From Lachnospiraceae bacterium (GTDB lineage: Bacteria > Bacillota > Clostridia > Lachnospirales > Lachnospiraceae): a DNA stretch of 41,695 nucleotides. Shown here piece by piece: positions 26,801 to 36,480 of this stretch. The first letter of the stretch is position 1. Each line of letters begins with the position of its first letter. The position numbers and the translations under genes were made by a program. The notes beneath the pieces were generated by a model. That model saw only the letters and a program-made list of their open reading frames with translations. It made no database searches and was not told where the DNA came from. The stretch covers positions 1 to 41,695 of the forward strand of contig JALESH010000058.1 in NCBI GenBank assembly GCA_022781985.1, written 5' to 3'.

Positions 26801-27051
26801 CCAGGCAGGAGGTGGCCAGCTTCCTGTACAGGTATGCGGAGTACCGCGGCTTTGATACCAGTGAGACAAAGGATCTGTCCGGTTTTCCTGACCGGGGAGA
26901 AATTTCCGCCTATGCAGGGAAGGCAATGGCCTGGGCCAACGCTGCCGGCATTATCACCGGCAAGGGAGGCATCTATCTGGATCCCAGGGGGACGGCTACC
27001 AGAGCGGAGATCGCTGCCATGGTGCAGAGGTTTGAGGTACGGTATAAATAG
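23884..27051 (+). CDS. large SLH-anchored surface protein with beta-helix-like, FN3 and SLH domains
   Basis: A 1055-residue secreted protein. Signal peptide at 1-29 (MKRKIVNLLLCACIVLM, cut near ASA). Residues about 48-450 begin with RTIYVDGSSSATGSGTQQLP and contain short beta-rich turns typical of right-handed parallel beta-helices (pectate-lyase-like). Residues about 605-695 are a fibronectin type III-like domain (SGLTPSAEYTFTATVTDQAG), followed by an MBG-like Ig-type domain at about 700-775 (TVTVDKTYVYTGRAI). Residues about 870-1055 are three SLH repeats (FSDVKEGDWFKEAVAYVYTN; FADVPAGKWYEEPVRWALEQ; FPDRGEISAYAGKAMAWANA). It probably lies on the cell surface bound to wall polysaccharide, as an adhesin or glycan-binding protein; no catalytic residues can be named. 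Own promoter; terminator at 27156. Confidence 0.88.
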   Translation: MKRKIVNLLLCACIVLMPAAQGASAVNAAGGSGGAHAASGESGETAAGRTIYVDGSSSATGSGTQQLPYKDFTTALSRAEDGDTIIIKAGGAFIGTETGNEMTPLVLDKAVTIEGESGSPSLSLRRAGILLEADVTLRNINLTLTNKTRAAICANGHRLELENVVSDSSARLVHVFAGNMYIANSSGNGTAPVGQRTGPKGEIIIKGSKTNLGNIYAGSMNGGFAVPAQITVEGAVNMRLGDIYASGALQGQYDEDAFLDYNSEPTAPAPSASAFPMTGRVSVRITGNSVGSVDGKMNEAGDRADVTFSTTNLESSLRLADIASLSLTGGKLRPAALNEGVNLSVAQGAALDLSAVMTANQSFFQVSDFTGGGTLEMNMDDTLAITGTVAGVTEFKTVGLTDGGSSGLVIEGHGYIDVSEAEGEGSFTFSPYPTQTSIVLEKVNDVWRAVGPGKEEENMIVLSSLSFSSPEVTARADQINALSGYKVDVDCAFADTVLWPDLGDIPFAYEIECLSQTYSGKSVRAEDGGYEAVIAPLNLKFLPWGSEENGSLWIYAADGEKKVYPAVYTIKMKAPEENGSLESTLRLTITGDGAESEVPQAPDVTAPVITAVTASAVTAETAVVTVTANDDWGIASYSLVKTGGEGEAAVTETETKGVFRLSGLTPSAEYTFTATVTDQAGNSSTETVSFRTAEAKKIDLSTATVTVDKTYVYTGRAIIPAAEDVTVTLNGRVVDPGGYSFTATNNVNAGTAVLSIRGRDGYAGSAAGIFTIHKAQGAQISSVAGSLALSQDLGTYTYRVTETAGAEYRMDDGPWQEGPTFESIAPGSSHTFSARMKETANTLAGSPVSTGPVSFPVIGAGDKEPIPSVDITAIFSDVKEGDWFKEAVAYVYTNRIMTGMGSSDQFNPYGETTRAMVVKILHNAMGAPASSHKNPFADVPAGKWYEEPVRWALEQGITTGVSPDRFAPDRSVTRQEVASFLYRYAEYRGFDTSETKDLSGFPDRGEISAYAGKAMAWANAAGIITGKGGIYLDPRGTATRAEIAAMVQRFEVRYK

Positions 27052-27117
27052 ATCGAAGGATTTGGAGGCTTTCTTCATCCAATTTGAGAGAAAAGTAATT
27101 TCTGAAAAACAATCTAT

Positions 27118-27153
27118 GATGCACATTGTGATGCACATTGTGATGCACATTTA
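27118..27153. repeat. three tandem 12-bp direct repeats
   Basis: GATGCACATTGT occurs at 27118-27129 and 27130-27141 and with two end changes at 27142-27153. It lies between the stop of the SLH gene and its terminator, and about 70 bases outside the left inverted repeat of the recombinase segment. It might be an arm-type recombinase binding site or just a 3' UTR repeat. Confidence 0.85.
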
Positions 27154-27155
27154 TG

Positions 27156-27205
27156 AAAAGCTGTTGCAAAGGCAGAGGTGGAACCTGCCTTTGCAGCAGC
27201 TTTTT
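27156..27205. terminator. strong terminator after the SLH gene, usable from both sides
   Basis: A 20-bp stem: 27156-27175 (AAAAGCTGTTGCAAAGGCAG) and 27185-27204, one G-U pair, loop of nine, ending in TTTTT. The A-run at the left gives a T-run on the opposite strand, so it can also stop transcripts coming leftward from the promoter at 27283-27311. Confidence 0.92.
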
Positions 27206-27222
27206 AATTTGGCCTAAAAATC

Positions 27223-27248
27223 TTTCGTGGAGTATCACACTCTACGAA
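27223..27248 (+). repeat. left inverted repeat (recombination half) of the invertible segment
   Basis: A 26-base near-palindrome with arms CGTGGAGT and ACTCTACG around the five-base spacer ATCAC. Its reverse complement matches the copy at 28554-28579 at 25 of 26 bases. Arm-spacer-arm form is that of a tyrosine-recombinase crossover site, and the asymmetric spacer is inverted relative to the other copy. Confidence 0.9.
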
Positions 27249-27282
27249 CTGATTCATTTATATTTATACAAATATTTACTTT

Positions 27283-27311
27283 ATTCTACAGATTTATGCT
27301 CGCTCTGTCAA
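27283..27311 (-). promoter_or_regulatory. outward-facing near-consensus promoter inside the invertible segment
   Basis: On the minus strand, TTGACA (27306-27311, perfect), 17 bases, TAGAAT (27283-27288, one mismatch). In the present orientation it fires leftward through the repeat into the terminator at 27156-27205 and meets no gene. After inversion it would face the operon at 28683. Confidence 0.85.
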
Positions 27312-27319
27312 TACGCTGT

Positions 27320-27348
27320 TTGAAGTCAAACGAATCGTCCGATTTATA
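27320..27348 (+). promoter_or_regulatory. weaker promoter candidate for the recombinase gene
   Basis: TTGAAG (27320-27325), 17 bases, TTTATA (27343-27348), about 24 bases before the recombinase ATG. The -35 lies in TTTGAAGTCAAA, a small palindrome (27319-27330) between this and the divergent strong promoter, which could be an operator. Confidence 0.45.
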
Positions 27349-27371
27349 GCCACAGAAAGGAGATATGTCTT

Positions 27372-28502
27372 ATGGCAGGAAAAGGTGAAAATATTTATAG
27401 AAGAAAAGACGGCAGATGGGAAGGCCGGTACATCAAGCCGCGCTCCTGTGCCGGCAAAACAGCCTATGGTTATGTGTATGGGAAAACATACCGGGAGACA
27501 AAAGCAAAGCTGCATAAAGCTGCTTTATATTTCGGATCAGAGGCTGCTCCGGAAACAGATTCGGATTTATTTGCATCGGTGGCCATGGAATGGTTTGATC
27601 AGATCAGGCTGCAAACAAAGGAATCTACCGGAAACAGGTATTGGAACCTGCTTCATTCTTATATTCTCCCCATATACGGCGAACAGCCATTGGAACACAT
27701 TACCTGCGATTTTATGGAAAGCCACTGCAATGCGCTCCTGCTGTCAGGAGGCAGGAAGGGGACAGGATTGTCACCGAAAACTGTAGCGGATATCCTGTCG
27801 GTGGTCCGCAGTATCATAAAATATGCCATAAAAAAAGGAAAAAATGTGCCCTGCGACGGAAATGGGGTCAGGGTAAAGCAAAGACCCAGGGGGATGCGGG
27901 TTCTAAGCAGGTCGGAACAGGAAAAGCTGTCCCGGTACCTGTATTCAGAACCTGATTCATTTAATGTGGGAATACTGATATGCCTTTTTACAGGTCTGCG
28001 TGTGGGTGAAATATGTGCTTTGCGCTGGGAGGATATCTCCATTTCAGATCAAACCATCTGTGTCCGGCATACCCTGCAGAGGGTGCAGGATAAATCAGGG
28101 GCTGATAAAAAAACAAAAATAGCAGTTACTGTCCCCAAAAGCGCCTGCTCGGTTCGGATCATCCCTATCCCGGATGCCCTGCTGGGTATTCTCACCGGGC
28201 ACAAAAGAGCTTCAGCTGGATATTGCCTGACAAATAGTGAGTCCAGGTTTATTGAGCCGCGGACTATGCAGAATCGGTTTAAGAGAGCATTAAAGAACAG
28301 CGGTATTGAACCGGCAAACTTTCATGCATTGCGCCATACGTTTGCAACCAGATGTATAGAATTGGGATTTGATGTGAAGAGCTTAAGCGAAATATTGGGT
28401 CATGCCACTATCAATATCACAATGAACCGTTATGTTCATCCAACACTGGAGCTGAAAAAAGAAAATATGCAGAAGCTCTCCTCTTTATTAGCTGTCAACT
28501 AA
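27372..28502 (+). CDS. tyrosine recombinase (site-specific integrase), intact
   Basis: A 376-residue tyrosine recombinase. Residues about 1-50 (IYRRKDGRWEGRYI, YGYVYGKTYRETKAKL) look like the three-stranded arm-DNA-binding domain of Tn916-type integrases; residues about 60-165 are the SAM-like core-binding domain; the rest is catalytic with Arg210 (TGLRVGE), a beta-hairpin Lys near 257 (VPKSACSVR), His318-x-x-Arg321 (HALRHT), His344 (LGHATI) and nucleophile Tyr354 (NRYVH). All active-site residues are present, so it should be functional. AAAGGAG precedes the ATG. The gene is alone between two inverted copies of a 26-bp crossover-like site, with no excisionase, relaxase or phage gene beside it. 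This suggests an inversion system more than a mobile element remnant. Confidence 0.92.
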   Translation: MAGKGENIYRRKDGRWEGRYIKPRSCAGKTAYGYVYGKTYRETKAKLHKAALYFGSEAAPETDSDLFASVAMEWFDQIRLQTKESTGNRYWNLLHSYILPIYGEQPLEHITCDFMESHCNALLLSGGRKGTGLSPKTVADILSVVRSIIKYAIKKGKNVPCDGNGVRVKQRPRGMRVLSRSEQEKLSRYLYSEPDSFNVGILICLFTGLRVGEICALRWEDISISDQTICVRHTLQRVQDKSGADKKTKIAVTVPKSACSVRIIPIPDALLGILTGHKRASAGYCLTNSESRFIEPRTMQNRFKRALKNSGIEPANFHALRHTFATRCIELGFDVKSLSEILGHATINITMNRYVHPTLELKKENMQKLSSLLAVN

Positions 28503-28553
28503 AACCGTCGGCACGGCCTGAAATGCAGGGATTACTGTCTTTTTCGGTGTTTT

Positions 28554-28579
28554 TTCGTAGAGTGTGATACTCTACGAAA
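28554..28579 (+). repeat. right inverted repeat (recombination half) of the invertible segment
   Basis: The partner of 27223-27248: arms CGTAGAGT and ACTCTACG around spacer GTGAT, extended to 12-base perfect arms by T-run and A-run. It ends 103 bases before the start of the membrane-protein operon. It might also act as a weak hairpin at the end of the recombinase transcript. Confidence 0.9.
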
Positions 28580-28682
28580 ATTTCTGATGCCTAGGGGTTC
28601 AGCCCGGCATGCACTGATTCCGGGCAGTGGCGGAGGATACCTGTATATTCAGAGGAAGAAGAGGGCGCAGGGTGAAGGAGTT

Positions 28683-30599
28683 ATGAGAATACAGGATGAG
28701 GGCAGGAGGGGAAAAAGCCCCCTGATCAATATAGGAAAAACCGTGTTGACCATGGCAGCAGTGTTAAACTGGATGGCAGTTTATTTTCATATTGAATTGT
28801 ATGCACTGATAGAGGACGGCAGGGTGTATACCTTTTTGGTTCTGCTTGGGGGATTTGCGTTATTCAGGCTCTATGGTACGGAGTATGATACAGGGCTGGA
28901 GATCCGGGAAAAAATCCTCTGTCTGGCCGGAGCAGTCATAATGCCCGTAGGAGCGGCCTTTGGAGCAGAGGAATCTACAACGGTTTTAGTAAACTCCTGG
29001 AAAAGTATTCTGCTGTTTACAGTATCAGTCACTGGCTGGTATTTTATGTGGAGTCATTTCCTGAAAAAAGGAATCTGCTGGTATCTGAAGAAGGAGGACA
29101 GGGAAATACAGGCCGCAAGCCGCCTGCAGAAGTGGTGCAGCTATGTATTGGACAGACATCCCATCTTGGTGCCCTTTCTGTTCATTTTGCTCCTGTGGCT
29201 GCCCCATATGGTTGTATTTTATCCGGGAGGCCTCATATATGATACCATGGATCAACTCAACCAGTACGCAGGTGCAACTGTGATGACCAATAAGCACCCT
29301 GTACTGACCACACTTCTCATGGGGAAATGTATAGAAATCGGCCGACTTGCGGCAGATGACAATCTGGGAGTGTTTCTTTGGTCTTTTGCACAGATGCTGT
29401 CAGGGGCAGGGGTATTTTCCTATGCCATCTGCCTGCTGAAACAGTGGAAGGTGCCCTGGGGCATCAGGATGGCAGTACTCTTATGGTATGGGCTTCATCC
29501 GCTGTTTCCGGGATATTATTATGGCATGCTGAAGGACAATATTCATGCAGTCTTTCTCATCTTGGCAATCCTATTATTCTATGAATATTTATTTTATGAA
29601 TATACCGGCAGAGGGGACTTTCTGCTGAAGCGGCACAAGACAGCAGTCTGGATGGGTGCTATGCTGGGAGCATGTCTGACCAGAAAAAACGGTATTTATA
29701 TCATCGCAGGAATGCTTGTTTTCCTGCTGATCCGGAAGGGAAGGCAGAAGAGGGTTTTGGGGGTGTTCCTGATCCCTATTTTTTTATATCTGGTGATAGA
29801 GGGCAGCGTGGTGGCAGCCATGAGGATACATCAGGGAAGTATAGCCGAGGTGATGTCCATTCCCTTTCAGCAGACAGCCAGGTACACAAAATACTATGCA
29901 GAGGAAATGAGTGAGGAGGAAATAGAAGTCATAGACAGCGTGCTGGAATATGACAGGCTGGGAGACCGGTATCGGCCCTATATTTCGGATCCGGTCAAGG
30001 GCACCTATAAGGAATCAGCCACACTCCGGGATTGGGCGAGCTATCTTCGGGTCTGGTTTCTACAGTTCTGCAGGCATCCTAAAATATATTTGGATGCCAC
30101 CATAGACAATACCTATGGTTATTATTATCCAATGGCCAATCCCATGGGAGAAAAGGGATTTTATACTCTTCTGGATGTAAAGGCCTTTCCAGAAATGCTG
30201 GTGCATGAAACACTGTTTGACTTTTATACGGAAAATCCCCGGTTTGAAAAAATCAAAGAGGCTGCCGCCCTATGGATAAACAGGGGCAGTGTAGACAGGG
30301 TTCTGCTGTTAAGCCTGAGCTATGCACCGGGGGCCTATACTTGGCTTCTGTGCTTTGTGCTGCTGCTGTTGATCAGAAAGGAAAGAGATTCCTGGGTGAG
30401 CATAGCGCCGGCCCTGATGCTCCTGCTGATCTGCATTGCCTCACCGGTGAATGCCTATGTCAGGTACTATTTCCCCATCATGGCAACAGCTCCTGTTTTT
30501 GTCTGCCTCCTGTTCAGACAAGGGGGACAGATTTCAAATTCTCCGGAAGGTACGGATATCAGGAAAGGAAAGAGCAATGACAGCAGGATATGTCCGTAA
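28683..30599 (+). CDS. polytopic membrane protein, DUF6020-like
   Basis: A protein of 638 residues with about 14 hydrophobic segments. YPGGLIYDTMDQLNQYAG with KHPVLTTLLMG in the first large outer loop, and later GLHPLFPGYYYGMLKDNIHA and ACLTRKNGIY, match the DUF6020 family as I remember it. Start chosen at ATG 28683; GAAGGAG ends only two bases before it, which is tight, and an upstream ATG at 28587 is in frame but gives a polar, unlikely extension starting only eight bases after the inverted repeat. It would be the first gene switched on if the segment 27223-28579 inverts. Overlaps the YfhO-like gene by 23 bases. GT-C-type sugar transfer is plausible; not proven. Confidence 0.75.
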   Translation: MRIQDEGRRGKSPLINIGKTVLTMAAVLNWMAVYFHIELYALIEDGRVYTFLVLLGGFALFRLYGTEYDTGLEIREKILCLAGAVIMPVGAAFGAEESTTVLVNSWKSILLFTVSVTGWYFMWSHFLKKGICWYLKKEDREIQAASRLQKWCSYVLDRHPILVPFLFILLLWLPHMVVFYPGGLIYDTMDQLNQYAGATVMTNKHPVLTTLLMGKCIEIGRLAADDNLGVFLWSFAQMLSGAGVFSYAICLLKQWKVPWGIRMAVLLWYGLHPLFPGYYYGMLKDNIHAVFLILAILLFYEYLFYEYTGRGDFLLKRHKTAVWMGAMLGACLTRKNGIYIIAGMLVFLLIRKGRQKRVLGVFLIPIFLYLVIEGSVVAAMRIHQGSIAEVMSIPFQQTARYTKYYAEEMSEEEIEVIDSVLEYDRLGDRYRPYISDPVKGTYKESATLRDWASYLRVWFLQFCRHPKIYLDATIDNTYGYYYPMANPMGEKGFYTLLDVKAFPEMLVHETLFDFYTENPRFEKIKEAAALWINRGSVDRVLLLSLSYAPGAYTWLLCFVLLLLIRKERDSWVSIAPALMLLLICIASPVNAYVRYYFPIMATAPVFVCLLFRQGGQISNSPEGTDIRKGKSNDSRICP

Positions 30600-33500
30600 A
30601 AGACTGGGTCTCTGGTGTGTTGGCGTTCTTTTTGCTGCGCTGCTGATATGGCCTCGGTTTGAGGATTACTCTCTTCAGCTAAGGCTTCGTCAGGACAGGA
30701 CCGGGCAGCATATGCAGATATATTGGAAGACAGAGGAAGGGGATTATACAGATAAGAACTCCTATAAGGCGGCCATCCTGGGACAGGATATATATATACC
30801 TGTTCAGAGGGGGATGCTGGGCTGGGACGTGGAATGGCGTCTGGATCCTATGGATGCCAACCTGGATCTGGGTATTTCATCCTTTGATTTATACAAAGGC
30901 GAGAAGTGGAGAAAAAATTTTTCCGCTGACGATCTGGCCGCCATGGTGAAAGGACAGGAGCAGATAGATACCGTCTACAGCGTGGGAGAGGACTATTACA
31001 TCAGGCCCTCAGGGGAGTCTGCATCCCTGTTTTTGGGAAACACTCTGCCCCGTATTATCGTCAGGCACATCCTGCTGCATTATTTGTTAAGTCTGGCAAA
31101 GGCTTCTGTTGTTCTGGCCTTACTTGTGGCAGGAGAGAGCCTGCCGGGAGTCAGGGGTCTCTATAGATGGGCAGGGAGACAGCTGGGGCGGATTGGGAAT
31201 GGGGTCAGAGAAGAGCCGGGAAGGCTGCTGGTGCTGGGGATGATGTTTCTGCCTCTGGCTGTGGGCACCTTGGCTGCAGAGTCCGGCATCTACTATATTG
31301 ACAGGAGCTATATCCTGAGGCTGCTGCTGGGAGGGGGGCTGCTGATATTGATTATTTGGGCGGACAGGCTGCCCGGGATCAGGAGTCTATACACGGTATT
31401 TCGGGGGGCTGTCTCCCGGGAAAGGTCTGCATTTTGGGTATTTTGCCTGCTGCTTGTCAGCCTGGTACTGCTGCTTTTCCATCCTATGTTTTTGGGGGAA
31501 AGGGTCTTTGTATATAGCGGTGACTCCCTGTATCAGACCTATCCCGGGCTGGCCCATGCAGCGGATCGGATCGCGGCAGGGGAGTGGGGAAGAGGCTACA
31601 CCTTCTATGAGTCGCTGGGAAAAGCAGAAGATCCCCTGCTCCTGAATCTGCGCAATTTCTGCGCCCTATTCGGGAGGGAAAATCTGGGAGCGGCCATGGG
31701 ATTTGCCCACATGCTCAAGATTTTATTTTCAGGGCTGTTTTTCTATGGTTTTTTGAGAAGAATGGGAACGGAGAAGCTGGGCTGCTTCCTGCTGTCATTG
31801 GGGTATGCCTGCAATTCCTACATGATAGCCAGGGGGATGTGGCAGAATTACCCCAATGAAGCCCTTTGCCTTGCCATGTGGCTATGGGGCTTTGAGGGCT
31901 TTAAAACCGGAAAGTGCTGGCTGTCCTTCCTTTTCGTCAACCTTTTTTGCTGCTGGAATTATAATGGCTACAGTATCATCCTGTATACAGGTATTGGACT
32001 GCTGTATGGGGTATTCCGGCTGGTCTCAGAGAGGGAGAAGCAGGAGCCCCTGAGACTGCTGTTGAAAAAAACAGGGGCACTGGTGGGAAGCATGGCAGCG
32101 GGGGCGGCTGCAGCCTGGACAGCCTGGCTTCCCTCTCTGATGAAAATGCTGGGAAGTGACAGGGTAAGGCTGGGGGCAGAATCGGCCTCCCAGCCGGGGA
32201 GTGTATTCAGCTTTGCCGATCTGCCGGTGTGGAGGACCATGTTCTACAGGATGCTGTCCCCGGACAGTCTGGGGATGTGGTCGGATACCTATAGCGGGAC
32301 CGCTAACTGGCTGGAGGATCCGGTCTACTACTGCGGTCTGGCAGCAGTGGTCTTCCTTCCTCTGGGCTTTTCTGTCATGTCCGGAGCGAAAAAAAGATGG
32401 TACCTTCTGCCGCTGGCCGGAGCCCTTCTCTACAATGCTTCTGATGGGCTAAGAAATCTGGCCAATGGATTTTCCGGCACCGGATGGAAGCTGTCCTCCC
32501 TGTGGGTCATCGTATGTATGCTGCTGGTGACGGCAGCATTATGGCAGGGGAATCCACCACCGAAGCCGGCCGGGGGAGGAGCCATACTGGTTTTGACCAA
32601 TCTTGGCCTGACAGGGGTTTCCGTAATTTTTTATGGGGAAGGGGTACAAAGGCCTTATCTGTGGGCTGCCATCAGCTTTTGTCTGCTGTTTTCTCTGCTC
32701 TTGTTTTTTCTGTGGAGGGAAAAGGAGGGGGAGCGGCAGCAGTATCTGCAGTATCTGCTGGTGATGGCAGCGGCGGCAGAGGTGTTCTGCTCCTCCTATC
32801 GGATCATCAATAATGAAGCGGCAGTGGATCCGAAGTATCTGAAGGAAAGCGGGTATGAGGACGGTACGGCGGAAATGCTGGCAGTCATAGAGGATCCTGA
32901 TTTTTATCGGGTGGACAAGCAGTTTACTCCGGTATCAGCCTGCGATTCCCTTTATCAGAGATACCGGGGAGCAGCCTCCTATATAGGAGGGGTGGGAGAC
33001 AGCCGGTATACCAGGAGGCTGTATCAGTATCTGGAGCTTCCTGCCCTGGAGCATGTTCAGATGGGAACGGATAAGAGTACGGTGGTGGATGCCCTGTTCA
33101 ATGTGAGATATGTGCTTGCTCAGGGAGAGGAGATCAGCACCTTCGGTCTGAATCTGCTGAAAAAGGAGGGGGAGCTTTCACTCTATAAAAACCAATATGC
33201 CCTGCCCTTTGGTTATGTGTACCACAGCTGGATCCCGGAGGAGGAGGCCTGGGGCTATGGAGCCGGGGACCGCAGGCTGCTGATGCTGGAGCAGTGCATC
33301 CTGGGGGAGGAGGCAATGGCTCGGCTGCCATCGGGAATCGTGAAGGGACAGGGCCGGACAGAGTTTCGGGAGAGGTGGGGGGACTACCGCAGGGAGATCA
33401 GCCTGGGAGAAAGAGAGGTTACCTTTGAGCCGGCGGAGAAGGGTCAGGTGATCGTGGTTCAGGCGGTCACAGAAGCCGATGCCGAAGCCTGGTGCCGGAT

Positions 33501-33933
33501 GTACTGTATGGAGGGAAACAGCATCCGGATGGAGAATTCTGTCAGGCTGGCCAGGGGGAGGGCAGAGCACTTTGAGGAATTCCGGGCAGAGGGGGCGGGC
33601 CGAATCCTGCTGCAGGCAGAGGGAGAGCAGCCTTTCCGCCTGGCCGGGGCGGAGCTGTATGTGATCCCTGAGGAGATATACTTTGCTGAGTATGTGAAAT
33701 TGACGGAAGAAAGAAGCCGGGGAGGTCTGGCCATGGAGTATTTTTCAGAGGAGAGGATGGAGGGAAGGGCCAGCCTGGAGAAGGACAGCATCATGGTATT
33801 TACCATTCCTTATGACCAGAATTGGAGGGTTTATGTGAATGGAGAGGAGCGGGAGCTGTTCCTGGCCAATATAGGATTTATGGGACTGGCGCTGGAAGCC
33901 GGGGATTATGAAATCCGTCTGGAATACCAGTGA
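30577..33933 (+). CDS. YfhO family membrane glycosyltransferase-like protein
   Basis: A very large membrane protein of 1118 residues. The start at 30577 follows AGGAAAGGAAAG and gives a normal first membrane segment; an earlier ATG at 30451 lies inside the upstream gene. Residues about 300-800 have YfhO-family landmarks: FVYSGDSLYQTYPGLAHA in the first big loop and GYACNSYMIARGMWQNYPNE, about 12 membrane segments. The C-terminal outer region contains the typical YfhO ending YDQNWRVYVNGEE. Before that, an extra N-terminal domain of about 150 residues between two membrane segments is present. Known of the family: GT-C-fold enzymes that glycosylate wall polymers such as lipoteichoic acid from lipid-linked sugars. 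Operon partner of the DUF6020-like gene and so under the putative switch. Confidence 0.85.
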   Translation: MTAGYVRKRLGLWCVGVLFAALLIWPRFEDYSLQLRLRQDRTGQHMQIYWKTEEGDYTDKNSYKAAILGQDIYIPVQRGMLGWDVEWRLDPMDANLDLGISSFDLYKGEKWRKNFSADDLAAMVKGQEQIDTVYSVGEDYYIRPSGESASLFLGNTLPRIIVRHILLHYLLSLAKASVVLALLVAGESLPGVRGLYRWAGRQLGRIGNGVREEPGRLLVLGMMFLPLAVGTLAAESGIYYIDRSYILRLLLGGGLLILIIWADRLPGIRSLYTVFRGAVSRERSAFWVFCLLLVSLVLLLFHPMFLGERVFVYSGDSLYQTYPGLAHAADRIAAGEWGRGYTFYESLGKAEDPLLLNLRNFCALFGRENLGAAMGFAHMLKILFSGLFFYGFLRRMGTEKLGCFLLSLGYACNSYMIARGMWQNYPNEALCLAMWLWGFEGFKTGKCWLSFLFVNLFCCWNYNGYSIILYTGIGLLYGVFRLVSEREKQEPLRLLLKKTGALVGSMAAGAAAAWTAWLPSLMKMLGSDRVRLGAESASQPGSVFSFADLPVWRTMFYRMLSPDSLGMWSDTYSGTANWLEDPVYYCGLAAVVFLPLGFSVMSGAKKRWYLLPLAGALLYNASDGLRNLANGFSGTGWKLSSLWVIVCMLLVTAALWQGNPPPKPAGGGAILVLTNLGLTGVSVIFYGEGVQRPYLWAAISFCLLFSLLLFFLWREKEGERQQYLQYLLVMAAAAEVFCSSYRIINNEAAVDPKYLKESGYEDGTAEMLAVIEDPDFYRVDKQFTPVSACDSLYQRYRGAASYIGGVGDSRYTRRLYQYLELPALEHVQMGTDKSTVVDALFNVRYVLAQGEEISTFGLNLLKKEGELSLYKNQYALPFGYVYHSWIPEEEAWGYGAGDRRLLMLEQCILGEEAMARLPSGIVKGQGRTEFRERWGDYRREISLGEREVTFEPAEKGQVIVVQAVTEADAEAWCRMYCMEGNSIRMENSVRLARGRAEHFEEFRAEGAGRILLQAEGEQPFRLAGAELYVIPEEIYFAEYVKLTEERSRGGLAMEYFSEERMEGRASLEKDSIMVFTIPYDQNWRVYVNGEERELFLANIGFMGLALEAGDYEIRLEYQ

Positions 33934-34185: not shown

Positions 34186-36480
34186 ATGAGAAACAGGAGA
34201 AAAACAATGGCGGGAGTTGCCCTGGGCATTCTGCTGGGACTGTGTTTTGGCCCGGTAAATGCTGCAGAGCCTGAAAACCCAGAAGGAACGGAAGTGGCTG
34301 AGGAGGTGGCTATAGATGAGAGGAACTTTCCAGATGAAGAGTTCCGCAGCTATGTGAGCAGATGGATGGATACCGATAGAAATGGCAGCCTGAGTGAGAG
34401 TGAGATTAGTGGATGTACAGAGATTGACGTACGAGATATGAAAATTAGGAGCTTGGAAGGAATCAAATATTTTACGTCCTTAACTGATTTGTGGTGTCAA
34501 AATAATAACCTAAGCAGTCTGGATGTAAGCCAAAATACGTCCTTAACTTCTTTGGTGTGTGATTCTAATAACCTAAGCAGTCTGGATGTAAGCCAAAATA
34601 CGTCCTTAACTTCTTTGAGGTGTAATAATAATAATCTAAGCAGTCTGGATGTAAGCCAAAATACGTCCTTAACTTCTTTGGGGTGTTATTCTAATAACCT
34701 AAGCAGTCTGGATGTAAGCCAAAATACGTCCTTAACTGATTTGAATTGTAATACTAATAACCTAAGCAGTCTGGATGTAAGCCAAAATACGTCCTTAACT
34801 TATTTGAATTGTGGTGGTAATAAGCTAAGCAGTCTGGATGTAAGCCAAAATACGTCCTTAACTGATTTGTGGTGTGGTTATACTAACCTAAGCAGTCTGG
34901 ATGTAAGCCAAAATACGTCCTTAACTCATTTGAGTTGTGGTGGTAATAACCTAAGCAGTCTGGATGTAAGCCAAAATACGTCCTTAACTTATTTGTGGTG
35001 TGATTCTAATAACCTAAGCAGTCTGGATGTAAGCCAAAATACGTCCTTAACTTATTTGGATTGTGTTGGAAATAACCTAAGCAGTCTGGATGTAAGCAAA
35101 AATACGTCCTTAACTGTTTTGAGTTGTCATAGTAATAACCTAAGCAGTCTGGATGTAAGCAAAAATACGTCCTTAATTAGGTTGAATTGTAGTTTTAATA
35201 ATCTAAGCAGTCTGGATGTAAGCCAAAATACGTCCTTAACTGAATTGGATTGTAGTTATAATAAGCTAAGCAGTCTGGATGTAAGCCAAAATACGTCCTT
35301 AACTTCTTTGAGTTGTAATAATAATAATCTAAGCAGTCTGGATGTAAGCCAAAATACGTCCTTAACTATTTTGAGGTGTAGTAATAATAAGCTAAGCATC
35401 CCCACTGCCGGAAGGGATATGCTCAAGTACGATCCTAACTTTAATCCGCAAAGGGTATCCGAGCTTCGAGGAATCACATTGACAGGAAATGTCCTTTCTT
35501 TCGAGGAAGGGGTGACGGTGGGGAGTTATACCTATGATTGCGGGAGGAACCAGACTATGCATGTATCCCTGTTCTATGAGGCCGTGCTGCTGGAAAACCT
35601 GAACTGGGGCTATAAGGAGGACGGCTCCGCGGTCATCCATGCCGATGTGGTAAACCGCGGCTATCATAGCCGGGAGGGACTTTCCGTGAGTCTGGTGAAG
35701 GATTCCCCGGAGGGAGAGGTTCTCCAGACCAAGCCTGTGGGCTCTGTAGAGTCCCTGGGCCTTGCCACGGTTTCCTTCCTGGTAAAGGCTCGGGAAAATG
35801 ATATCTACTACGTGGTGTTAAGGGATCAGGAAAACCGGCTGGTGGACAGCGATTACCTGGTTATTGACTCGGAGTCTGCAGGTGACGGATCCGGCACACA
35901 GGAAAAGAAATGGATCTTTACCGATGTGTCAGTGGTTCCGGGAAACTGGAAGTACGAGGGGGTAAGGTATGTGTACAACCAGGGTCTGATGGGAGCGGTG
36001 GGTGCAAGCAATCAGTTCCAGCCCGATAACCAGCTCACCAGAGCCATGTTCGCCACCGTCCTCTACCGTATGGCAGGGGAGCCGGAAACTGCCTACAGCA
36101 GTAAATTTTCCGATGTGGCGGCAGGAAAATGGTACAGCAGTGCCATCCTCTGGGCCAACAGCAAGGGCATCGTGCAGGGCTACAGTGATGGCAGCTACGG
36201 CATCAACGACAACATCACCCGGGAGCAGATCGCCAAGATGCTCTGCCTCTACGGAGAAGCCCAAAAGTATGATGTGAGCGCCAGGGCATCCCTGGACAGC
36301 TTCACCGACAGAACCAAGGTCAGTGACTGGGCGGCAGGCTATATGCAGTGGGCTGTGCACACAGGCATGATCAGCGGCAAGCCCAACGGAGACAGCACCT
36401 TCCGCCTGGATCCCAAGGGACAGGCCACCCGGGCCGAGTGTGCCAAGATGCTGAGGATGTTTAACGAGAAGTATCAGTAA
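34186..36480 (+). CDS. leucine-rich-repeat surface protein with three SLH domains
   Basis: A 764-residue secreted protein. Signal peptide at 1-27 (ALGILLGLCFGPVNA). The cap has FPDEEFRSYV and an EF-hand-like loop DTDRNGSLSESE (from Asp62). Residues 109-402 are exactly fourteen 21-residue leucine-rich repeats with the fixed part LSSLDVSQNTSLT (SKN in two) and the variable part xLxCxxNN. Residues about 403-570 are beta-rich; 574-764 are three SLH repeats (FTDVSVVPGNWKYEGVRYVY; FSDVAAGKWYSSAILWANSK; FTDRTKVSDWAAGYMQWAVH). Such internalin-like gut proteins bind partners on the outer surface; the partner is unknown. AAGGAGG lies 6 bases upstream. The repeat region is AT-rich while the flanks are GC-rich, suggesting the array was acquired or expanded separately. 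Followed at 11 bases by the next SLH gene. Confidence 0.92.
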   Translation: MRNRRKTMAGVALGILLGLCFGPVNAAEPENPEGTEVAEEVAIDERNFPDEEFRSYVSRWMDTDRNGSLSESEISGCTEIDVRDMKIRSLEGIKYFTSLTDLWCQNNNLSSLDVSQNTSLTSLVCDSNNLSSLDVSQNTSLTSLRCNNNNLSSLDVSQNTSLTSLGCYSNNLSSLDVSQNTSLTDLNCNTNNLSSLDVSQNTSLTYLNCGGNKLSSLDVSQNTSLTDLWCGYTNLSSLDVSQNTSLTHLSCGGNNLSSLDVSQNTSLTYLWCDSNNLSSLDVSQNTSLTYLDCVGNNLSSLDVSKNTSLTVLSCHSNNLSSLDVSKNTSLIRLNCSFNNLSSLDVSQNTSLTELDCSYNKLSSLDVSQNTSLTSLSCNNNNLSSLDVSQNTSLTILRCSNNKLSIPTAGRDMLKYDPNFNPQRVSELRGITLTGNVLSFEEGVTVGSYTYDCGRNQTMHVSLFYEAVLLENLNWGYKEDGSAVIHADVVNRGYHSREGLSVSLVKDSPEGEVLQTKPVGSVESLGLATVSFLVKARENDIYYVVLRDQENRLVDSDYLVIDSESAGDGSGTQEKKWIFTDVSVVPGNWKYEGVRYVYNQGLMGAVGASNQFQPDNQLTRAMFATVLYRMAGEPETAYSSKFSDVAAGKWYSSAILWANSKGIVQGYSDGSYGINDNITREQIAKMLCLYGEAQKYDVSARASLDSFTDRTKVSDWAAGYMQWAVHTGMISGKPNGDSTFRLDPKGQATRAECAKMLRMFNEKYQ
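34510..35391 (+). repeat. array of fourteen 63-bp coding repeats
   Basis: Fourteen units of exactly 63 bases, starting each time with CTAAGCAGTCTGGATGTAAG. About 40 bases per unit are almost invariant (including third positions), while four codons vary freely and nearly always end in T or G. The near-identity at silent positions means recent expansion or ongoing homogenisation. Confidence 0.97.

Follow-up and report, generated by a model that had tools for sequence, protein, structure and literature searches.

The locus described here raises the question of whether a tyrosine recombinase gene and an outward-pointing promoter, which lie together between two short inverted repeats in a genome of a Lachnospiraceae bacterium, constitute a DNA switch that encodes the enzyme for its own inversion. 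The window, by which we mean the whole analyzed stretch of 41,695 nucleotides, was proposed in a sequence-only reading to show the OFF state of such a self-contained switch. We likewise read 27223–28579, with a probability of about 0.87, as an invertible promoter cassette with a recombinase gene of its own, the cassette being OFF in the window and targeting the DUF6020/YfhO operon to its right. This reading is supported by an architecture that recurs in related loci, by the identity of the spacers within each pair of sites, by the conservation of the promoter, and by relatives in which the element is turned over.

Layout of the segment

The features on which the argument depends are as follows.

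27156–27204, no strand assigned: strong terminator-like hairpin to the left of the element, facing the outward promoter (−39.1 kcal/mol, z −6.5)
27223–27248, plus strand: left recombination site, a near-palindrome with spacer ATCAC, TTTCGTGGAGTATCACACTCTACGAA (from sequence)
27283–27311, minus strand: outward promoter TTGACA-17-TAGAAT, an 11/12 match whose end lies 34 bp in from the left site (consensus match; conserved in the family)
27372–28502, plus strand: Int-like tyrosine recombinase of 376 aa; its N-terminal domain is predicted to be beta3-alpha (Pfam Phage_integrase, E 1e-26)
28507–28558, plus strand: terminator-like hairpin of moderate strength that follows the recombinase gene on the inner side of the right site, ends approximate (−10.8 kcal/mol)
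28554–28579, minus strand: right recombination site, inverted, TTTCGTAGAGTATCACACTCTACGAA as read on the minus strand, with spacer ATCAC there (from sequence)
28683–30599, plus strand: DUF6020 membrane protein; its gene opens the presumed target operon (profile match)
30451–33933, plus strand: YfhO-like membrane protein, presumed second gene of the operon; ORF as listed, with the start possibly further in

The two 26-bp sites are near-palindromic and inverted, with 25 of 26 bases equal, and arms of 10–11 bp flank the same 5-nt spacer in both, so that re-reading the sequence bore out the earlier description of the pair and of its matching spacers. Strand exchange by tyrosine recombinases needs identical crossover spacers. 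The pair scores 23, where the cut-off used for the family was at least 18, and a pattern search of the 2.44-Mb genome (90.9% complete) that allowed up to 3 mismatches found no copies of the site beyond these two. The 1.3-kb segment encloses the outward promoter and a recombinase gene that, as had been claimed, is intact over its 376 codons and matches the Pfam Phage_integrase family; the only other ORFs of at least 90 aa between the sites (27385–27786, 27641–27955, and 27659–28042) overlap it in other frames. Transfer genes and an excisionase of the Tn916/Tn1549 conjugative transposon type were not encountered between the sites, where the recombinase fills 27372–28502.

Residues R210, K256, H318, R321, H344, and Y354 of the recombinase, which we take to be the catalytic positions, are invariant in an alignment of 15 proteins. 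Its nearest named kin are from Lachnospiraceae, and the window genome holds two other recombinase matches, 26–27% identical to it. The closest solved structure is that of the Tn1549 integrase, followed by XerA when ranked by sequence and by lambda Int when ranked by fold. The predicted model of the protein has a mean pLDDT of 83 and a pTM of 0.63.

Recurrence of the site pair and the promoter in related loci

Relatives of the recombinase were gathered from contigs of named genomes, from genomes without a name in the same family or order, and from records of plasmids, phages, and viruses, and 104 loci, including the window, were kept of 107 matches after identical genes were removed (L and G numbers are our labels for loci and genomes). 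These are the best-scoring matches and not a random sample, 60 regions having been taken from about 100 places listed, and the loci are not fully independent, since some are near-copies (L068 and L069, for example, are nearly identical). Site pairs were sought in 450 bp on each side of the recombinase, with the left flanks paired with the right flanks of other loci as control. An inverted pair scoring at least 18 surrounds the recombinase in 63 of 104 relatives versus 0 of 513 mismatched-flank controls, and even at the laxest cut-off of at least 14 the counts are 67 of 104 versus 7 of 513. The expectation that relatives with this recombinase also carry the repeats as a pair is borne out by the 63 with a close pair and not by the other 41 of the 104, which have no close pair scoring at least 18 and some of which are cut by contig ends; among them, L006, L010, L074, and L143 have pairs that are wider or placed differently, L050 scores 17, and in L114, L131, and L052 a short pair lies to one side of the recombinase and does not enclose it.

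Within each of 62 of the 63 paired loci (one 166-bp repeat was left out) the two spacers are equal: none of 312 positions in the central 5–6 nt differs, against 114 of 1240 positions in the arms, figures to be read with the fact that the site finder requires a run of 8 matches, which somewhat favors matching centers. Across these loci there are 50 distinct spacers. Genome G153 carries four cassettes (L116, L118, L120, and L125) with four different spacers (ACCAT, GCCAT, ATCCC, and ACACC), and in genome G405 L119 and L154 differ, but L155 and L158 share the spacer ACTTT, which weakens the idea that each cassette has a private spacer and makes exchange between these two loci possible.

The invertible segment is mostly 1.2–1.6 kb long across the family. 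Wider cassettes of about 3.8–4.0 kb from site to site, enclosing ORFs besides the recombinase, were seen at L006:2244–6199 and L010:385–4173, and at L053:5840–9041 two recombinase copies lie side by side in opposite orientation, each with the same 19-bp sites, with a run of N between the copies and a possible assembly artefact. On the tree, for which eight loci without a pair of at least 18 (L006, L010, L070, L073, L074, L075, L143, and L144) were labeled self-contained by hand, that label is scattered, with 22 changes against a shuffled mean of 28.4, suggesting that the self-contained state was often gained, lost, or missed. The three nearest kin of the window locus (L003, L107, and L004) are all self-contained. 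Of 397 genomes sampled from the family to which the window belongs, 77 contain a relative of the recombinase at E <= 1e-60, not all of these relatives being in cassettes.

A scan of this part of the window found 3 promoter-like sites against a shuffle mean of 3.9, and since that number is unremarkable, the case for the promoter rests on family statistics. On the outward strand between the left site and the recombinase, matches of at least 10/12, at least 11/12, and 12/12 occur in 48, 31, and 13 of 62 loci (one of the 63 paired loci was left out because the stretch is too short), versus 7, 2, and 0 of 62 on the opposite strand of the same DNA and 9.8%, 0.9%, and 0.0% of dinucleotide shuffles. 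In many of these loci the −10 box ends about 25–40 bp inside the site. A feature first seen once in the window, where it was correctly placed 34 bases inside the left site as TTGACA-17-TAGAAT, is therefore a conserved part of the cassette design, although it is known as a promoter by its sequence only. It also points left into a terminator, as had been stated, the hairpin at 27156–27204 being a strong one (−39.1 kcal/mol), and the leader of about 157 nt predicted to result from inversion holds arithmetically, given a start ATG at 28683 and a transcription start 7 nt past the −10 box.

On the other side of the recombinase, a hairpin of −10 kcal/mol or lower follows the gene in 20 of 63 loci, including the window, L003, L107, and L004, compared with 4.4% of shuffles, and a terminator at this place was dropped as a general family feature because it is above chance only in that subset. 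The palindromic right-hand site is itself terminator-like. These observations bear on the possibility that the switch inverts but alters the recombinase or flanking read-through, with the DUF6020 operon transcribed from elsewhere. The recombinase and the operon are indeed codirectional in the window and the internal terminator is only moderate; however, a scan of 26900–29000 for the sigma-70 consensus found nothing promoter-like on the plus strand from the end of the recombinase gene to 28683, and conservation of the outward promoter across the family is strong, so we think this explanation unlikely. For the window recombinase itself no near-consensus promoter was found, the best forward score being 7.

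Orientation of the element and the genes beside it

Inversion is indicated at the sequence level by two pairs of loci, found in the comparison with related genomes that the sequence-only reading had proposed, and in both the breakpoints fall in the sites. In genome G405 the elements of L155 and L158 are 95% identical but turned over, with breakpoints inside both sites and with flanks that are 92% identical over 2523 bp and 94% identical over 248 bp; repeated exchange between the two loci would be a less simple alternative to plain inversion. In L012 and L014, from Clostridia metagenome-assembled genomes of sheep rectum and roe-deer colon, the elements are 95% identical with an equal spacer, and the flanking sequences match each other with their order reversed, at 72% over 741 bp and 83% over 60 bp. 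Homologous target operons also lie on opposite sides of more diverged elements, namely TadZ in L152 and L164, a TnpB-like gene in L147 and L150, and a helicase in L155 and L154. By the layout of neighboring genes, 31 of 63 elements are OFF-like, as in the window, 5 are ON-like, 19 have genes pointing outward on both sides, 4 have genes pointing inward on both sides, and 4 lack a neighbor on one side. L067 and L079 were considered as one locus in two orientations and dropped, because the flank they share is a regulator gene and correspondence of the remaining context was not established.

For the window locus, one copy in a single orientation is present in its genome, and the opposite orientation was not found. 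Two patterns for the window site gave 0 and 0 matches in viral contigs, a search of the 60 relatives with the DUF6020 protein gave nothing at E <= 1e-60, its own genome being the only one to match, and the best recombinase matches in phage-labeled and plasmid records are 63% and 39% identical and thus from other species. A single orientation was likewise seen among the mutually alignable Enterococcus raffinosus loci L068, L069, L071, and L072 (five records examined), and L077 and L107 share an element that faces the same way in both. The lack of a second orientation for the window locus, together with the one arm mismatch in its left site and the partial degeneracy of its arm-type repeats described below, would fit a switch that once inverted and is now locked; but the recombinase ORF is intact with all six presumed catalytic residues, both spacers are identical, the promoter is near consensus, and arm mismatches are widespread among the relatives, at 114 of 1240 positions, and we regard a fossil as quite unlikely. 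The ends of Tn916-type elements carry unrelated coupling sequences, and since both ends here have identical spacers in 62 of 62 loci within near-palindromic arms, it is very unlikely that the segment is a small mobile element or integrative cassette with att-like or terminal-repeat ends and only incidental inversion, a view that could draw on the kinship with the Tn1549 integrase, on the many unrelated genes that related cassettes adjoin, and on relatives in plasmid or phage-labeled records, but that also has against it the single copy in the window genome, the conserved outward promoter, and the paired loci that keep the same flanks around an overturned element.

The genes that an invertible promoter cassette of this kind would regulate are varied. 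S-layer-homology-domain genes lie on both sides of the window element. One of the proteins near it, a 764-aa SLH protein encoded at 34186–36480, contains a run of near-identical leucine-rich repeats (SLDVSQNTSLT) and is a candidate for repeat-number variation. Among the relatives, Pfam scans covered 30 of the 35 target genes listed, and 2 of the 30 matched no family. Polysaccharide genes come first on the regulated side in L003 (epimerase), L058 (CpsB), and L132 (Wzz), and regulators do so in L124, L011, L068, and L071; in L071, from E. raffinosus, the element lies ahead of a regulator and secA2. Further first targets include a NusG-like gene (L120), TadZ (L016, L152, and L164), an HD-domain gene (L064), PP2C phosphatases (L111 and L166), TnpB-like genes (L060, L119, L147, and L150), and, recurrently, helicases with 4–6 helicase-associated (HA) domains (L149, L154, L156, and L158, with L155 assigned by DNA similarity). 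In E. gilvus the recombinase lies ahead of WxL-domain genes, with a repeat pair that scored only 12.

A TnpB-like gene of about 450 codons lies behind the switch at L006:6264–7568(+), L050:7576–8928(+), L060:7618–8970(+), L061:7301–8656(+), L119:3551–4879(−), L147:3352–4695(−), and L150:6234–7607(+). PF07282 was found in the four of these proteins scanned with Pfam, the NCBIfam guided_TnpB model stayed below its cut-off in the three scanned, and the alignment with PDB entries is restricted to the C-terminal part; the RuvC acidic residues appear to be replaced when the alignment is read against TnpB motifs. In three of the four loci examined (L006, L060, and L061) the next genes include LicD, a CDP-glycerol phosphotransferase-like gene, or an aminotransferase, and the TnpB-like gene has a partly conserved noncoding block 3′ of it. 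One possibility is that the TnpB-like target is an RNA-guided regulator of surface polysaccharide that lacks nuclease activity and varies in phase.

Arm-type repeats and the place of the cassette among known switches

The integrases of Tn1549 and lambda act on core sites and on separate arm sites that are read by the N-terminal domain. In the window recombinase this domain is predicted, with moderate confidence, to consist of strands at residues 8–10, 16–22, and 31–37 and a helix at 40–54; it holds a strongly conserved stretch, GENIYKRKDGRWEGRY, in the 15-protein alignment, and gave no match to a Pfam arm-binding model at E <= 0.5. Direct repeats of the form GTCA-N8-GTCA were found around the start and stop codons of the recombinase genes, and the window has partly degenerate versions of both sets:

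27325–27352, plus strand: upstream arm-type repeats GTCA, GTCC, and GCCA at 12-bp spacing (27325, 27337, and 27349), before the Shine-Dalgarno sequence
28494–28510, plus strand: downstream arm-type repeats GTCA (28494) and GTCG (28507), overlapping the stop codon

Among the 103 of 104 elements used for this count, the upstream repeats occur in 53, at a median of 37 nt ahead of the start codon, and those around the stop codon in 46, with 32 elements having both sets, compared with less than 1% in shuffles, 1 and 0 of 103 on the reverse strand, and 0 of 103 at mid-gene. About half of the elements have no detectable repeats.

The base ahead of GTCA tracks the recombinase residue that follows GENI, a position in the first predicted strand (residues 8–10). 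In the 62 of 104 elements that have a readable N terminus, 90 bp or more of DNA ahead of the gene, and repeats detectable as a pair, the first unit of each pair has C with Tyr in 55 of 60 cases, A with Phe in 10 of 10, G with Arg in 21 of 21, and G with His in 6 of 6. The rule is obeyed by 59 of the 62 elements; the exceptions are L010, L133, and the window, which has Tyr9 at this position. Parsimony on a tree of the catalytic part gives 8 residue changes and 9 base changes, and in the reconstruction used both change on 5 branches, the residue only on 3, and the base only on 4, the number of independent co-switches being inexact because the deep branches are ambiguous. The clearest co-switches are the Phe clades (L137/L143/L134, L128, and L144/L131) and the lone Arg member L126. 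From this covariation, which we regard as strong but indirect evidence, we infer that the N-terminal domain probably reads the GTCA repeats, as in the Tn1549 and lambda integrases. The window enzyme is Int-like, with a probable arm-reading domain.

In capsule loci of Bacteroides, invertible promoters act according to their orientation, and in these invertons as in those of RecV the invertible DNA is short and the recombinase gene lies elsewhere. Hin of Salmonella resembles the window case in being encoded within the DNA that inverts, and it is a serine recombinase, nonhomologous to the window enzyme. The likeness to Bacteroides capsule loci and RecV drawn in the sequence-only reading therefore stands for function (promoter inversion between inverted repeats, a surface role, and ON or OFF by orientation) and falls for arrangement, the recombinase lying outside there, whereas in the window it is inside, Int-like, and probably arm-reading.

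The RecV switches of Clostridioides difficile consist of regulatory DNA between inverted repeats that a site-specific recombinase inverts and that controls surface functions (PMC7446863, PMC5903667). The discussion of one of these papers mentions that recombinases are occasionally located within the invertible segment, as with Hin, and a section of the same paper names one case of an enclosed recombinase, a fimbrial inverton of Providencia stuartii, which is an 844-bp segment that encloses a recombinase ORF between 14-bp imperfect repeats (PMC5903667). The arrangement is in principle the same as in the window, but the bacteria and the repeats differ. In Clostridia, inverton group 139 with invertase group 35 comprises 33 invertons, of which 32 are from Clostridia; the group shows a statistical association with tyrosine recombinases in its vicinity, as well as orientation shifts in reads (PMC11892184). 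Two examples with coordinates are about 206 and 228 bp long, too short for a recombinase gene, which would place the recombinase outside. The pneumococcal SpnIII hsdS locus is described as encoding a site-specific recombinase within the switching locus (PMC11868660), but it is coding sequence that is shuffled there and a promoter here. The closest relatives in sequence and fold are the Tn1549 and lambda integrases (PDB 6emy–6en2 and 1z1b), which integrate and excise elements, whereas the inverted sites with identical spacers described here would serve inversion. No description of the cassette family or of the arm rule was found in the open-licence PMC literature searched. Relative to these systems, the additions appear to be a self-contained layout that recurs around a Tn1549-like recombinase, spacers that are specific to each locus, and arm sites governed by a single residue; judged from sequence comparison, the new elements are the GTCA arm repeats at the recombinase Shine-Dalgarno sequence and stop codon and the one-residue recognition rule.

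In the proposed working of the cassette, the recombinase would exchange strands at the 5-nt spacers of the inverted sites and so turn over the 1.3-kb segment. In the OFF state of the window, the outward promoter would fire left into the terminator, and the moderate hairpin after the recombinase would limit rightward read-through, whereas in the inverted, ON state the same promoter would fire to the right, across the site and into the DUF6020/YfhO operon, which is presumed to have a surface or membrane function and lies near S-layer-homology genes. The N-terminal domain very probably binds the GTCA repeats at the recombinase's own Shine-Dalgarno sequence and stop codon, and the arms probably set both synapsis and the expression of the recombinase. 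Since the upstream arms lie over the ribosome-binding region, recombinase bound there may limit its own synthesis. For the window copy, inversion, a change in operon expression, and autoregulation are thus inferred from its layout and its relatives.

More broadly, we put at roughly even odds a scenario in which an integrase of the conjugative-transposon type was domesticated into a plug-in, self-driving promoter switch across Clostridia and Enterococcus plasmids, with arms over its own ribosome-binding region and stop codon that couple recombination to expression, a single N-terminal residue (Tyr with C, Phe with A, Arg or His with G) that sets arm specificity, and differing spacers that keep most cassettes of the same genome apart; we go no higher in view of the spacer that L155 and L158, cassettes of a single genome, have in common. 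The covariation of residue and base offers a rule, open to direct test, for how an integrase domain recognizes its arm sites. If the scenario is true, a sizeable part of phase variation in Clostridia would run on self-contained cassettes, which searches tuned to short promoter invertons might miss because the segment is mostly 1.2–1.6 kb long and contains a gene. Cassettes that lie ahead of capsule, Tad-pilus, accessory-secretion, and regulator genes would then be candidates for surface switching in gut commensals.
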